Under the pieces are notes generated by a model that was not told the DNA's origin, searched no databases, and worked only from the letters and a program-made list of their open reading frames with translations. DNA of 57,626 bases from Rothia nasimurium (GTDB lineage: Bacteria; Actinomycetota; Actinomycetes; Actinomycetales; Micrococcaceae), in contig NZ_SPQC01000014.1 of NCBI RefSeq assembly GCF_004569295.1, forward strand, positions 1 to 57,626. The letters are read 5' to 3'. How positions within the stretch are numbered: the first letter of the stretch is position 1; every line of letters begins with the position of its first letter. Of this stretch, positions 4,889 to 31,761 are shown one piece after another. The translations under genes were made by a program, and so were the position numbers.

Positions 4889-5911
4889 ATGAGCGACCAG
4901 ACCGCATCCGCAGTAGCCACCAGCCAACGTGCCACTTGGGCAGACCTCCCCCGTTCCGTACAGGCATGGGTTGAAGAAGAGCTAGGCAGCCCCGTGGTAG
5001 GCGCTGAGTCGCAAAGCGGCGGGTACAGCCTGGGCACCGCCGACCGCCTAGTCACTGCAAGCGGGCACAGGGCTTTCCTCAAGGCTGTTGACGCTAGCCT
5101 CCATCCTCACACGGCTGACCTGCACCGGCAGGAGGGCCGCATCACCGCGTCCTTCCCCAGCAGCACCCCGATCCCGTCCGTCCTTGCCACCCGCGATTTT
5201 CCCGAGGCGGACGACGCAGGCTGGGTTGCTCTGCTTCTGGAAGATATCGAGGGGTGGCACCCGGCAAGCCCCTGGCAGAAAGAGGAACTGGCCGCCGTTT
5301 TTCGGTCCTTAGAGAGCATGAGCCGGGTTCCGGTTGACCCAGACCTAAACCTACCAACCACCGAAGCTGACCTGACCGAGGAACTCATTTTTTGGTACAA
5401 ACTCGCTCGGGGTGTAACCCAAGAGCACCTGGTCTATGTTCAGGCCACTGATTCCTATCAGCAGCTGGTGCAGCTACTGCCCTTTATCAACATGAAAGCC
5501 GCCGAGTTTGCCGCCTTTGTAGACGAGCACCTGGTCGCCCATCTGGCAGGGAGCTCCTATGTGCATACCGATTTGCGGGGCGACAACATTCTGATTCGCC
5601 CCACTGGCGAGGCTATTTTGATTGACTGGCCTTGGGCGACGGTGGGTAACACCCAAATTGACTGGGCCTCGGTGGCAACTGATGCTCTGATTGCTGACCC
5701 CGAGCTGACTCTCGCTGAGGTATACGAGCTGATGCCGACGTCCGGGCGCCCTGCGATTGGGTTCTTGCAGGCTACTGTTGTCGCTTTGGCGGGCTACTAT
5801 CTCTACGCTTCTATACAGAAGCCCAGTGACTCTACGAACTCGTCGCTGGTGAGTATGCGGGCCCACCGCGCGTCCGCCCTGCTCACCAGACTAGCCCAGG
5901 GCAAAAAGTAA
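4889..5911 (+). CDS. Aminoglycoside phosphotransferase-like (APH family) kinase
   Basis: 340-residue small-molecule kinase of the APH/choline kinase fold. Glycine-rich loop SGGYSLG at 43-49, candidate ATP lysine in AFLKAVD near residue 65, catalytic HTDLRGDN (His226, Asp228, Asn233), and metal-binding Asp246 in IDWPW. The substrate is unknown; in actinobacteria this family includes antibiotic kinases but also many housekeeping or uncharacterised enzymes, so resistance should not be assumed. I chose ATG 4889: TACACT at 4876-4881 lies 7 nt before it, the geometry of a leaderless mRNA, while a TTG ten codons upstream would lie inside the promoter. The stop codon lies inside the first copy of an 85-bp palindromic repeat. 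Confidence 0.8.
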   Translation: MSDQTASAVATSQRATWADLPRSVQAWVEEELGSPVVGAESQSGGYSLGTADRLVTASGHRAFLKAVDASLHPHTADLHRQEGRITASFPSSTPIPSVLATRDFPEADDAGWVALLLEDIEGWHPASPWQKEELAAVFRSLESMSRVPVDPDLNLPTTEADLTEELIFWYKLARGVTQEHLVYVQATDSYQQLVQLLPFINMKAAEFAAFVDEHLVAHLAGSSYVHTDLRGDNILIRPTGEAILIDWPWATVGNTQIDWASVATDALIADPELTLAEVYELMPTSGRPAIGFLQATVVALAGYYLYASIQKPSDSTNSSLVSMRAHRASALLTRLAQGKK

Positions 5912-26254: not shown

Positions 26255-28093
26255 TAGTTGGCCTTCCTGGTTCTACGAGTTAGCATCCTTTGACGTGCGT
26301 TTTCAAGCGCCGATAGTTCTTCCAAGCCAATACCTAGCGTCATTGCGATTAATTTATTTTGCTGTGGAAGTAACTCAGAAATTGAGGCTCCTTTACGCAA
26401 AGACTCATCTAATTTTTCAAAGGAACCTAGATTAGAAATCACAGGAATAGGCGTATTGCGAATCTCACTTGGGACGAGTTCAAGAACTCCGCCACCGTAA
26501 GTTCTTCCATTCAGTTCGCAAGCCAGTAGTGTTAGTGAATTCAACCAAGTAGATGTTAACAATCTGGAATCAATTGTTGAGGAAATTCGATACGCAGTAT
26601 CCGTGGTGAGGGCTTGAATATCATTAGCGATTAGTCGGGGGGCTTCATTAGATCTTTTCAGCAAACTGATATTTGTCCTGTATACAGACGGCACATGCCA
26701 CCAAGGATTACGGATTCGGGTTTTATACCGAAGGTGAAGATCAAGAGACTCGCCTAGCTGCAAATACTCCTTTGCACCAGGTGAGAGGTCTGTCCAATCT
26801 GTTGCGTTCAAATCCAGGAATAGGCAAGGTAAATCAGCTTTCAAGTTAGCCTCGTGATCAGCTGAAGTGTACGTGAGCCCTCGAACGTGTGAGCTTCTGC
26901 CAAACATCGGTCGCGTATACTCATGAAGATTATATTTGTCAGCTATCGATTTAGAGATAACGAAGAATGAATTTGCGCCCGTTACAATTCCCACTTGGAC
27001 AGTTGCCACATCTGAAAATAAGCGAATATTGGTGTTACCGCTCAGCGAGAAAAGGGCTTCACGTTCTGTATCAGTTAGAAGGCCATCCATCCATTTTGCC
27101 GAACCAGCTTCACGCTCAACAAATCGCGCACTATGAAAAATAGTATCTATCGATGAATTTCTGATGGTATCAGTAGAAATCTTTTCGAATGCAATTTTTG
27201 ACTTACCTTGAAACCCTGCCCTTCGACGAACAGCAGCTAACAATACTGTCCTCTGCAGAGTTCCTTCAAAAAATAATTCGTCAGCGTCTAGGACAAGTAT
27301 CGACTCACATGTCTTTAACAGATATTCTCTAGCAGCTCCTGCATGTAATACGCTCAGTAATTCTGCTGGAATTACCATTGCCAGACGACCACCAGGTTCC
27401 AACTCCATCAATGCCTTGATAACAAACGGTACCCATGCATTTGTATGTTTTGTAAATTGCAGTCCTAAAGTTTTATATAAATTTTGTGCCTTAAGTTGTG
27501 TACTCTCGCTAAGATACTGGTATCGAATAAAGGGTGGGTTACCAACCACAGCGTCTACTGGATTGGCCGGTTCATAATCTAAGTAATCTTGGTTTAGAAC
27601 ACGCCCCTCTACATTATGTAATTGAATTTTAGCTTTTTCAGCTTCATTTGGGTCAAGTTCGATAGCGGTAATATTAACTGGCGGTTGATCTAGTTCTGAA
27701 ATTACTTGTAAAAAAACACCGTCACCAGCTGAGGGCTCAAGCACATTCTTTGCACCCGCAACAGCCCATTTCCCCAAAAATTCAGCGATATGCTTTGGAG
27801 TGTAGAATCCACCACGCAGTTTCTCTAGTGATTCTGATTCTAGAGGTTTCTACATTATGTAATTGAATTTTAGCTTTTTCAGCTTCATTTGGGTCAAGTT
27901 CGATAGCGGTAATATTAACTGGCGGTTGATCTAGTTCTGAAATTACTTGTAAAAAAACACCGTCACCAGCTGAGGGCTCAAGCACATTCTTTGCACCCGC
28001 AACAGCCCATTTCCCCAAAAATTCAGCGATATGCTTTGGAGTGTAGAATCCACCACGCAGTTTCTCTAGTGATTCTGATTCTAGAGGTTTCAT
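26254..28093 (-). pseudogene. N6-adenine DNA methyltransferase broken by a 241-bp tandem duplication
   Basis: Gamma-type (TaqI-like) adenine methylase. The 5' ORF from ATG 28093 reads FYTPKHIAEFLG (motif X), LEPSAGDGVF (motif I) and AIELDPNEAE, then shifts frame at the end of the first repeat unit and stops at 27782. The second repeat unit re-encodes the same N-terminus in the correct frame, but its ATG has become TAG. The downstream ORF (507 residues from TTG 27777) has motif I, NPPF (motif IV) and the full C-terminus but lacks motif X. Collapse to one copy would restore a protein of about 532 residues. The stop overlaps the type IIG start, so the two are coupled. Confidence 0.8.
27609..28090. 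repeat. 241-bp perfect tandem duplication inside the methylase gene
   Basis: Units 27609-27849 and 27850-28090 read identically by eye; flanking bases share only TC. The period, 241, is not a multiple of three, so it changes the reading frame. It covers the methylase start codon, motif X and motif I. Perfect identity implies a very recent event, reversible by slippage or recombination. Confidence 0.9.
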
Positions 28094-28773: not shown

Positions 28774-29649
28774 AGGGCCCTGCCGCTGAATACGCTGGTT
28801 GCTTTCTCCGGTGAACTGCCCGACCCCGACGTTATAGTGCCCGGGGTTGATACGCCCACCGTGACTGAGGCGTCCATGAACCCTGACCTCAAAGGCAGGA
28901 ACCTGGCTGAGGTCTTCAACCAGGACGGCCAGCATATTCTGATCGTGGCCAACAAGTACCAGACCGGCTTTGACCAGCCCCTTCTGGTTGCCGTGTATGT
29001 GGATAAGAAGCTCTCGGGTATCACCGCTGTGCAGACCCTCTCCCGTCTCAACCGCCGCGCTGACGGCAAAGAGAACACCTACATTCTGGACTTCGTCAAC
29101 GACCCCGAGCAGATTCGCGCCGCCTTTGCCGAGTACTACGAGGACGCCCGTATCGAGACCGAATCGGACCTCGACCTGGTTGCCAAGCAGGTCGACAAGC
29201 TCGACGCCGCTAGTATCTACAACCGGGCAGATGTGGAACAGTTCTGGGAAAAGTGGGTTGCACCCGGTGCCCGGCAGGCGTCCTTTGACTCCCTCATCTC
29301 TATTCCCGTGCAGCGGTTTGTGACGCGCTGGCGGGCGGCGCAGGAAGGAGTTGATGGTTCTACTGACCGAGCCGCCCTTGAGGTACTGCTGGAGTTCCGC
29401 TCAACCCTCGCCCAGTACGTGAAGTCCTACGCCTTCTTCTCGCAAATCTTCAACTTCGGCGACCCCTACTACGAGAAACTCTTTGCTTTTGCGGATCTGC
29501 TCGCGCGCAAGCTGCGCCGCTTTACCCTCGATGAGGTGTCACCCGAGGTAGTGAACGTGGACGACTTCGTACTCACCCACTACCGCCTCGAAAAGCTGCG
29601 TGAAGAGGAAGACTTGAAGCTCTCGTCCTCGCAGGCAGCTGGTCTGTAG
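28774..29649 (+). pseudogene. hsdR: Type I restriction enzyme HsdR, C-terminal fragment
   Basis: Homology starts near 28786 with LNTLVAFSGELPDPDVIVPG and runs to TAG 29647. It includes the last part of the helicase motor (LIVANKYQTGFDQPLLVAVYVDKKL, TLSRLNRRADGK, TYILDFVN, i.e. motifs V-VI) and the C-terminal helical region; the nuclease and Walker A parts are absent. About 290 of the usual ~1000 codons remain. Same strand as the hsdM remnant at 22.4 kb, and GC-rich like the chromosome, so it belonged to the older hsd locus that the AT-rich module replaced. A GTG at 28837 gives a 270-residue ORF but is unlikely to be a real start. Confidence 0.85.
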
Positions 29650-29652
29650 GGC

Positions 29653-29865
29653 ATGACGATGGCCAACACCAAGGTGGACTTCTACCACTCGAAGAATGTG
29701 CGTGTTGTTGGCCTGGCGAATAAGCTCTGGGACTACAGCTCAGATACAGCTGACCTGATTGACCATGTACGCAAGCTACCCCCGGAGCAGTTCGTGGAGT
29801 TCATGCTCGAAATGGGCCTGTACGAGCTGCTCCGGGGCGAGAAGGTGGAGGAGCTGAGCCACTAG
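29653..29865 (+). CDS. Hypothetical protein downstream of hsdR
   Basis: 70 residues from ATG 29653 (alternative ATG two codons later), 3 bp after the hsdR stop. Contains VGLANKLWDYSSDTADLIDH and PEQFVEFMLEMGLYELLRG: acidic, probably helical, no signal or membrane segment. Likely once co-transcribed with hsdR. Its stop overlaps the stop of the converging ATPase gene by two bases. Function unknown. Confidence 0.5.
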   Translation: MTMANTKVDFYHSKNVRVVGLANKLWDYSSDTADLIDHVRKLPPEQFVEFMLEMGLYELLRGEKVEELSH

Positions 29866-31649
29866 ATATTGTGGGACGTCTTAGAGAGCAAGCTCTCCGC
29901 CACCTGTTCCACACCCAGGCGGTACTGTGCGGAATCACGATCTGCACGACGCACATCCGTTAAATCAAGAACAGCCCTACTCTGTTCCTCTGGAATCTTA
30001 GAGTTAGCAATCCACAGAACCGGCACAACATTCTTGCCGTCTAACACAGACAAGTCACTTATTTGCTTTACCCAGCGAGGCGTCACCAAAGCCAAGCCAA
30101 CATGAGGTATCTGCTCGTCAGCGTCCGCCCCAAAGGTATCGGCCAGACCTGTCGAATCATCATCAAAGATGAGCTCAACACTCAATCCAGACAGGCCTTC
30201 AACAGCATCAGCAACATCTTCAGCAAAACCACAAATATTCCCTGCTAACGCAGAGCCCCCATCAGCCGCAGCGAAACTAGCAACGACACGCAGGTCAACA
30301 TCGCCAGTGTTCTTAGAGGGCTCAAGCTCTGCCCGTGGCTCAATCGCAGTTGCGCGCGCTCTGTTCATCAGCCCCTGCCACAAACTCGCGTCCCACAAGG
30401 CGGCCAAGGGAAGTGCCCATATGTTCTCACCTAATGGCACAGGCCGAGCCACATTACAAACGACGAAACCCCGAGCTACCCTGTCACCATACAATTTTTG
30501 AAAGGCCTTTAGCCCCTTCAAGAATTCAGGTTTTACACGCGCAGAAGCTTTCACTTCCACAGAAATGAGAGAACCCGCAGAATCACGCAAGACTACATCG
30601 ACCTCAACGTCCTTGTTCTTAATCCGCTGTCGCCAATGGAATATATCCACACTACGCTCAGCCCATCCAGCATGGGCGCGTACCTGCTGCATCACCAGCG
30701 TCTCAACCAGGCGCCCTCGTACATCTGCATCAACTAACTGTGCATCACTCGTACTTACCAAAGACCGGGCGGATAAAGCCACATCTGCGGGGAAAAACTT
30801 AGCTGAAGACCGCAGAGACCTCTTTGAAGCCCGATGTAGGTTAGGAACCTCATAGATTAAGAAACGTTTTTCGAGAGCGTCGAGATAAGAATCAACTGTG
30901 CGGCGGTCCATTGAGAGTTCTCTGCCCATTTCAGAGATATTTAGCTCTGAAGCAGGGTGCCTTAAAACATAAGCCAAAATCTCGTGTGCACGCACCTGAT
31001 CAAACGACTCACCTGACTTTACCCGCTGAGTTAAGATGCTTCTTATACCCTCGTCAATAGCCAGCCCTAAAGTAGAGGTCACTGAATAACCAGCAAACCG
31101 ACGATACTGGGGCATACCTCCTAGAACAATCGCATCAGATTCAATATCCAGAGGTTGTACTTGTTCCCCTGTAACCGGATTTGCATCAAATAGAGCATCT
31201 ATCACAGACCACGGCTGCTGATGGGGAGAGCTGATTTCTGCCTCACTCAAAGGCTCTAATGATACTCGTAAAGCCCTGCGTGCCAGAGGGTCAGTGCCGC
31301 CAAAACCACTTTGCCCGATGCTTGAAGAACCGGTAAGAACCAGACGAATTGAGTCCTGGTTCTCATCTAGAACCTGTTTCACAGCAACCGGCAGCTCAGG
31401 AACCAGCTGAGCTTCGTCGATTGCGCAGGGCCACTCTAAACCACGGAGCCAACCCACTGTATCAGCCTCAACCACTGCTCGCAGACCGGTATCAGCCATC
31501 GAATAAACTGCCTTCAGATGCCCCTCATGAGCCAGCTTGTTCACCAAGCTTGTCTTCCCCACTGCACGAGCGCCTTCGATAATCACGACAGGCGCAACAG
31601 CAAGTAGGTCAAGTATCTTGGGCTCAAGGAATCTGGGATAGAACGTCAT
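29862..31649 (-). CDS. AAA ATPase with DUF4143 and a TIR-like C-terminal domain
   Basis: 595 residues, intact. Residues 20-180: AAA_14-type ATPase with Walker A GARAVGKTS (26-34) and Walker B CAIDEAQ (Asp78-Glu79), then sensor LVLTGSSS. Middle: winged-helix segment (ISEMGRELSMDRRTVDSYLDAL) and DUF4143 with a nuclease-like DVEVDVVL...SVEVKAS pattern. Such proteins are widespread, little understood and often toxin- or defence-linked. Residues about 450-590 are an extra domain: VVASFAAADGGSALAG, then LSVELIFDDDSTGLADTF, VGLALVTPRWVKQ and NVVPVLWI, an alternating alpha/beta pattern that resembles TIR/SEFIR-like folds. Start ATG 31649 follows TACAAT by 7 nt, so probably leaderless. TIR assignment is by pattern only. 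Confidence 0.75.
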   Translation of the reverse strand: MTFYPRFLEPKILDLLAVAPVVIIEGARAVGKTSLVNKLAHEGHLKAVYSMADTGLRAVVEADTVGWLRGLEWPCAIDEAQLVPELPVAVKQVLDENQDSIRLVLTGSSSIGQSGFGGTDPLARRALRVSLEPLSEAEISSPHQQPWSVIDALFDANPVTGEQVQPLDIESDAIVLGGMPQYRRFAGYSVTSTLGLAIDEGIRSILTQRVKSGESFDQVRAHEILAYVLRHPASELNISEMGRELSMDRRTVDSYLDALEKRFLIYEVPNLHRASKRSLRSSAKFFPADVALSARSLVSTSDAQLVDADVRGRLVETLVMQQVRAHAGWAERSVDIFHWRQRIKNKDVEVDVVLRDSAGSLISVEVKASARVKPEFLKGLKAFQKLYGDRVARGFVVCNVARPVPLGENIWALPLAALWDASLWQGLMNRARATAIEPRAELEPSKNTGDVDLRVVASFAAADGGSALAGNICGFAEDVADAVEGLSGLSVELIFDDDSTGLADTFGADADEQIPHVGLALVTPRWVKQISDLSVLDGKNVVPVLWIANSKIPEEQSRAVLDLTDVRRADRDSAQYRLGVEQVAESLLSKTSHNI

Positions 31650-31656
31650 AGGTCAA

Positions 31657-31683
31657 ATTGTACATTCGATGCACAAAATTTTG
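31657..31683 (-). promoter_or_regulatory. Leaderless promoter and AT palindrome of the ATPase gene
   Basis: Minus-strand TACAAT (31662-31657) ends 7 nt before the ATG. Upstream, the palindrome CAAAATTTTG (31674-31683) lies within a repeated TGCACA context and covers the region a -35 would occupy; it may be an autoregulatory site. Confidence 0.45.
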
Positions 31684-31761
31684 CACATAGAAGGTACAAG
31701 TTGTTAAAAGCACTAGGTGGATTAACTAGTTCACCTCAGTAGTCATCATCAAGATGCTTTC

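Follow-up and report, generated by a model that had tools for sequence, protein, structure and literature searches.

The question raised by this locus is whether an ATPase gene with a TIR-like C-terminal extension, lying beside decayed restriction genes in Rothia nasimurium, encodes a live defence effector, and what the repeated motifs found in front of it may do. The gene occupies positions 29862..31649 (minus strand, stop included) of the window, i.e. the whole stretch of 57,626 nt that was analysed, and consists of one open frame of 595 aa with an ATG start and without internal stop. That the ORF represents more than chance is indicated by the presence of a full-length orthologue in 10 of the 35 genomes of the genus group (own genome included), the named relatives being up to 96% identical to the window gene. 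The AAA_14 ATPase domain (31233..31592, minus strand; residues 20-139) was delimited from a Pfam match (E = 5.6e-13) and invariant columns, and carries the Walker A motif GARAVGKT and the Walker B motif AIDEAQ. DUF4143 (30543..31001, minus strand; residues 217-369; Pfam E = 1.2e-29) includes a winged-helix-like stretch and the PD-(D/E)XK-type residues E349, D351, E365 and K367. Both of these matches were above the Pfam cut-off, and those to HTH_11 and PDDEXK_10 were below it. The four nuclease residues are invariant in 13/13 rows of alignment A2, in which the key residues of the Walker A and B motifs, like those of the nuclease E.D...E.K, are kept in every row. The first-pass annotation of the locus had described an AAA_14 plus DUF4143 protein with intact motifs followed by about 145 extra residues; the motifs are borne out by these Pfam matches and invariant residues, and the extension is present.

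The ATPase-nuclease part, residues 2-421, matched the PADLOC model PDLC04790 of the candidate defence system PDC-S01 over model positions 10-420 of 422 (E = 2.6e-83, 278 bits; PADLOC supplied no cut-off for this match), and scanning the window protein against NCBIfam gave no match at E 0.01. As predicted from its sequence, the window gene is a PDC-S01-type AAA ATPase joined via a winged-helix-like region to a PD-(D/E)XK nuclease. PDC-S01, which we take to be the same as COG1373, is a family of very common, little-studied and putatively anti-phage ATPase-nucleases. The accessible portion of PMC12988326 describes PDC-S01 likewise as an ATPase joined to PD-(D/E)XK, ranks it fourth in abundance among prokaryotic defences, with 9,986 archaeal and 29,494 bacterial systems, and states that validation is pending for most such candidates. 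In the available parts of three other papers, PDC-S01 is reported to be abundant in the rumen (PMC13356809), an archaeal AAA-HTH-RecB family is listed as likely defence (PMC4158269), and DUF4143 appears as an annotation (PMC4406477). In the literature searched, outside preprints and most subscription papers, neither a mechanism for PDC-S01 nor repeats upstream of its genes nor a fusion to a TIR was found described. What distinguishes the window clade from PDC-S01 as described is the added TIR domain, to which the intact members add a further tail.

In the window protein itself the extension (29865..30299, minus strand; residues 451-595) gave no TIR match with Pfam or PADLOC, and no credible match of the domain was obtained against the PDB (best E 0.2). 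A methyltransferase match (E = 0.0056 with the tail, 0.00098 with the whole protein) was weak and was taken as chance. Its relatives are more informative: TIR_2 was found by Pfam in the three fused relatives scanned (L009, L010 and L011; E = 1e-8, 3e-9 and 1.5e-13), and the window-type tail aligned across 140 columns with the six fused TIRs (hhalign 99.4%, E = 5.8e-22), as against a weak 58% probability with stand-alone TIRs lacking the ATPase part. A profile of the six fused TIRs matched the PDB sequences of Cat1 (E = 3.8e-6), flax L6 (0.0079) and AT1G72930 (0.009), with its kseacrrEf segment aligned to KSDWCWDEL of Cat1 and DSKWCLMEL of L6. We take Cat1 and L6 to be NADases, and the glutamate of this C..E segment to be the catalytic one. 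The three segments that had prompted the TIR proposal, LSVELIFDDDS, VGLALVTPRWV and NVVPVLWI, correspond to VxLFLD, FxLPFITPRYV and LLLPLIWI in the TIR core of the intact relatives.

The intact relatives match TIR_2 as well as Cat1 and flax L6, to which their C..E segment aligns, whereas the window domain differs from them in lacking this segment. The segment with the catalytic Glu is present in 6/6 intact fused relatives, but its equivalent, SEACRREF, is gapped in 7/7 window-type proteins (9-12 residues as aligned; three of the proteins were rechecked in a second alignment). Furthermore, the SYTHxD and WGE motifs are altered in all seven, and all seven have also lost the C-terminal tail of approximately 200 aa, which in the intact fusions is judged from its sequence to be helical. 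Because the segment holding the catalytic Glu is gone, the window TIR is almost certainly dead as an NADase. The TIR resemblance noted by pattern in the first-pass annotation is therefore true homology, and the three quoted segments do belong to a kept TIR core, but the notion of an ATPase joined to an effector does not hold for the window copy, which lacks the catalytic-Glu segment, has a changed WGE and has no Pfam TIR. Judging from these alignments, the tail is a TIR domain by descent and now a pseudo-enzyme.

A dead enzyme need not be a useless one, and the substitution rates bear on this. Among six close window-type sequences the dN/dS ratio (Nei-Gojobori) of the TIR remnant was 0.248, compared with 0.079 for the AAA domain and 0.090 for DUF4143. 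Against L008 the remnant gave 0.24-0.32 in four comparisons, and it is without stop in seven window-type proteins that go down to 53% identity in the domain. These values indicate that the remnant is relaxed yet still under purifying selection. Such selection, a frame that stays open in 7/7 proteins and the kept core segments could also be expected of a remnant that still works as a live single-gene effector, another acidic residue having replaced the Glu or another nucleotide being hydrolysed or bound; yet we regard this as very improbable, given that the gapped segment is the very one to which the C..E of Cat1 and L6 aligns and that WGE, SYTHxD and the tail are changed or lost throughout. 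Conversely, the TIR part might be decaying and functionless, merely carried behind the conserved ATPase-nuclease. Its dN/dS is roughly threefold that seen in the rest of the protein's domains, and decay has affected the catalytic part, the tail and the restriction genes nearby alike; however, a ratio of 0.25 is far below 1, including in the comparisons with L008, and no stop has appeared in any of the seven proteins, so that this explanation appears fairly unlikely. We favour a pseudo-enzyme that is still selected: with the catalytic segment lost, and the adjoining type I system decayed too, the remnant can only be structural or regulatory.

When and where the catalytic part was lost can be traced among the relatives. 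A total of thirteen distinct fused proteins were identified, seven of the window type (595-597 aa) and six of 805-818 aa with the TIR and the tail of about 200 residues; L080 was left out of this count, being identical to L028 in the part compared. A check for homologues with the same fusion, as had been proposed at the outset, therefore turned up six distinct relatives with a full TIR. In a tree built from the N-terminal ~430 residues, all seven window-type proteins group together in a single clade (support 100/100), the sister of which is the intact TIR fusion of R. amarae (100/99). Since the window-type clade has an intact fusion as its sister, the catalytic loss occurred once, within a TIR-bearing lineage. 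Two relatives without TIR, L031 and L089, branch inside the wider group of the tree, and their placement makes both a gain and a loss of the TIR at the base of that group possible. L091 has a very long branch in this tree and is probably a wrong ORF, supporting no conclusion. The extension is not a general property of ordinary DUF4143 proteins: outside the TIR clade 119 of the 121 complete family rows, a few genes being contained twice (L002 = L054), measure 380-431 aa, the two exceptions being the broken L033, at 97 aa, and L037, whose 699 aa seem to be an out-of-frame run. The TIR fusion is therefore particular to the clade of the window gene.

The TIR and its tail also occur without the ATPase part, in related actinobacterial genera (L096-L099), and so constitute a separable module. 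These four proteins match the fusion profile from positions ~439-454 to 783-806, that is, over the TIR and tail part only, and retain the WG and CR.E positions. L097 and the fused relative L029 match the NCBIfam model FxsC_Nterm, below cut-off; L096-L099 are possibly an undescribed actinobacterial TIR family, distant to FxsC. Among phage records there was one match, covering residues 3-408, and for no viral contig could a gene related to the TIR fusion be confirmed. The plasmid records matching P0001 numbered 211, one of them covering at least 80% of it, and megablast with the DNA of one relative gave no match.

The genes around the window gene have decayed as well. Convergent with it lies an hsdR fragment (28837..29649, plus strand) of 270 aa, ~90 residues of which match type I REase profiles. 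Nearby, a type II methyltransferase is split into two frames by a perfect 241-bp tandem duplication (window positions 27608-28091; 241 is not a multiple of 3). Since it is perfect, this duplication must be very recent, reversible or an assembly artefact. The beginning of a type IIG gene near the window gene is in another frame. These three genes are consistent with the adjoining decayed restriction genes noted earlier. A domain scan of the flanks covered two of the intact fusions, L026 and L027, and the flanks of L028, L029, L030 and L034 were listed only. The intact fusion of Rothia sp. S11A (L027) lies inside a type I locus, in the order hsdM, hsdS, hypothetical gene, fusion and hsdR; in R. 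amarae (L026) the order is AbiEi, hsdR, intact fusion, RmrA and RmrT, and a scan of five ORFs at that locus showed neither hsdM nor hsdS. The TIR and the type I genes thus both look full-size in L027 and are both decayed in the window lineage, in what is a single contrast. PrrC, beside EcoprrI, is a known case of a toxic effector embedded among type I restriction genes. The L027 fusion likewise sits within a type I locus, but PrrC is an anticodon nuclease, and a guard role of the fusion toward the type I restriction system can only be hypothesized. It is plausible that the intact fused relatives are putative single-gene defence systems.

The sequence just upstream of the ATG contains an operator-like palindrome, TTGTGCATCGAATGTACAA (31658..31676, minus strand), and a second, distal one lies 23 bp further upstream (31681..31699, minus strand). 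Both are of the form TTGTRCATNNRATGTACAA; in the window, two mismatches occur in the distal one, which is nearer to perfect in several sister genes, and three copies spaced by 23 bp are present in the sister L008. Overlapping the proximal palindrome is a predicted -10-like box of the TANNNT type, TACAAT (31657..31662, minus strand), 7 nt before the ATG. A search that tolerated up to two mismatches found the palindrome pattern only at the window gene in the 2.69-Mb genome; in viruses the pattern matched 14 stretches, about the number expected by chance according to a rough estimate. In R. nasimurium strains (L022, positions 5460-5598; L023; L032) a second, partial copy of the gene start is found some hundreds of bases in front of the full gene and comprises half a palindrome and ~40 codons; the window has no such copy. 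The genome also holds a second DUF4143 gene (L002; G000:C34:4331-5443), which is preceded by 23-bp repeats of its own with a different sequence, AAANTGCGGAAT.

Other DUF4143 genes were likewise seen to have different repeats in the same place and with the same spacing. To quantify this first observation, pairs of 12-mers with at least 10 identities were scored within 120 nt upstream of the start, for each spacing from 12 to 60. Among 51 non-redundant upstreams (reduced from 71 by similarity filtering), repeats were found at 23 bp in 27, at 22 bp in 6, at 46 bp in 19 and at 44 bp in 6, and all remaining spacings in at most 2. Repeats at 22-24 bp occurred in 34/51 of these upstreams compared to 14/269 controls (p = 3.7e-22), the controls (294 before filtering) being ORFs from the same loci that were called mechanically, with a minimum of 150 aa, rather than annotated genes. 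With the statistic fixed beforehand, the result was replicated on actinobacterial genes from genomes new to the repeat test: 73 places among the matches listed (open frames of ~400 aa or more) and 18 automatic loci gave 91 loci, of which 85 remained (three had no gene and three no start) and, after similarity filtering, 66. Repeats at 22-24 bp were present in 55 of these 66 (23 bp in 50, 22 bp in 5, 46 bp in 42, 44 bp in 3, 45 bp in 3, others in at most 1). By comparison, among 264 windows placed inside the replication genes no spacing was found more than 6 times, and that of 23 bp only 4 times.

Arrays of three copies behave in the same manner. When the spacing was left free between 15 and 35, 70 of 104 actinobacterial upstreams reached at least 28 of 36, as opposed to 4 of 269 controls, and the two spacings of these 70 strong arrays were (23,23) in 58, (22,22) in 8, (22,23) in 2, and (24,24) and (25,23) in 1 each; the last copy ends a median of 34 nt before the start. 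With three copies at spacings of 18-27, the upstream segment was the best of its own locus in 28/47 loci, mostly not those of window-type genes: the window gene, like most TIR-clade genes, was not distinct from the rest of its locus in the three-copy search. It also fails the direct-repeat threshold (22-24 bp spacing, at least 10 of 12 identical), since its units are palindromes with mismatches. Beyond the actinobacteria, plasmid-borne relatives from other phyla had direct repeats at 22-24 bp in 9/21 cases (p = 3.9e-6), of which 4 came from 13 genes chosen before their sequences were seen and 5 from 8 more; 6/7 of the passing alphaproteobacterial plasmid-borne genes have them at 22 bp. In place of direct arrays, three plasmid-borne genes (L069, L074 and L075) show strong inverted repeats located on the start or a few bases from it, an arrangement suggestive of a second type of operator.

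A TANNNT box near the start is a feature of leaderless actinobacterial promoters. Such a box, 4-10 nt before the start, was present in 51/104 actinobacterial family upstreams and 22/269 controls. The family upstreams have a lower GC content than the controls (0.550 vs 0.605), and the excess was seen in each GC class: 12/18 vs 2/33 below 50%, 25/54 vs 11/76 at 50-60%, and 14/32 vs 9/160 above.

The repeats might nonetheless have nothing to do with an operator, and represent a translational element, a mobile-gene attachment site or the trace of a past gene duplication. In favour of this are the gene-start pieces duplicated upstream in L022, L023 and L032, and the transposase or integrase gene that lies near 5 of the first 13 plasmid-borne relatives. 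However, within the upstream DNA examined, the equal spacing, which is (23,23) or (22,22) in 66/70 arrays, fits protein binding better, and promoter-like boxes near the start together with a repeat sequence that varies between clades also speak against such elements, which we therefore consider unlikely. So rigid a spacing is compatible with each repeat accommodating a single unit of protein. From the position and regularity of the arrays we infer that the repeats are a self-operator, through which the encoded protein would regulate its own gene.

If a protein does bind there, it could instead be a separate host regulator. A precedent is given in the available part of PMC12255303, where RptR, a distinct repressor, binds three direct repeats at the promoter of a defence island. 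Several direct repeats over a defence promoter are common to that island and the present loci, but the RptR repeats are 9 bp and are read by a separate repressor, while those described here lie in front of the ATPase gene itself, at a spacing of 22-23 bp. In addition, the search for the protein region that reads the repeats found none, the winged-helix columns showing no enrichment among those best correlated with the motif (2 of the top 30, with 31 of the 360 tested columns lying there); the missing winged-helix signal would suit a separate regulator. On the other hand, the two family genes of the R. nasimurium genome differ in their repeats and the palindrome stands before the window gene only, which makes a shared regulator unlikely; we hold a separate one to be quite unlikely overall.

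Binding by the encoded protein, which we prefer, is consistent with the way in which motifs and proteins diverge. In a set of 95 arrays, for which spacing pairs were searched at 22-24 only and near-copies were included (the later recount was non-redundant, at spacings of 15-35), the motif of the nearest protein was among the five nearest motifs in 63/95 cases vs 5.1 expected, and repeat motif and protein distances were correlated (Mantel rho = 0.268, p <= 0.001). When only proteins of less than 50% identity were considered, the nearest-motif count was 17/95 vs 5.7 expected and the correlation was weak (rho = 0.122). This co-divergence may reflect plain common descent.

Taken together, we consider it probable (roughly 0.6) that the window gene encodes a PDC-S01-type ATPase-nuclease with a pseudo-enzyme TIR, which putatively binds its own repeats and holds its promoter down. 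The protein would bind the upstream repeats with one protomer per repeat and, so bound, would keep its own promoter repressed; an invading-DNA trigger, or failure of the neighbouring restriction system, could then lead to release and to activation of the ATPase-nuclease. Intact relatives would, through their TIR, additionally deplete NAD+ and kill the cell. A more far-reaching view, which we put forward tentatively, is that the PDC-S01 family is built around a private phase-locked 22-23-bp array on which the protein assembles, the clade-specific repeats acting in autoregulation and, at the same time, as a self-recognition code by which the nuclease and, in the Micrococcales clade, the fused TIR death effector would be armed or restrained.

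The window gene is thus a TIR-fused variant of a known candidate family, and its TIR is dead; of the two results, the upstream repeats are more important than the dead TIR. A short DNA element beside many PDC-S01 genes offers a direct handle on whether these proteins read their own promoters. The TIR-fused clade indicates that the PDC-S01 family can couple to what is likely a death effector; a natural catalytic-dead version of it, in which the remnant is still selected, is represented by the window lineage.
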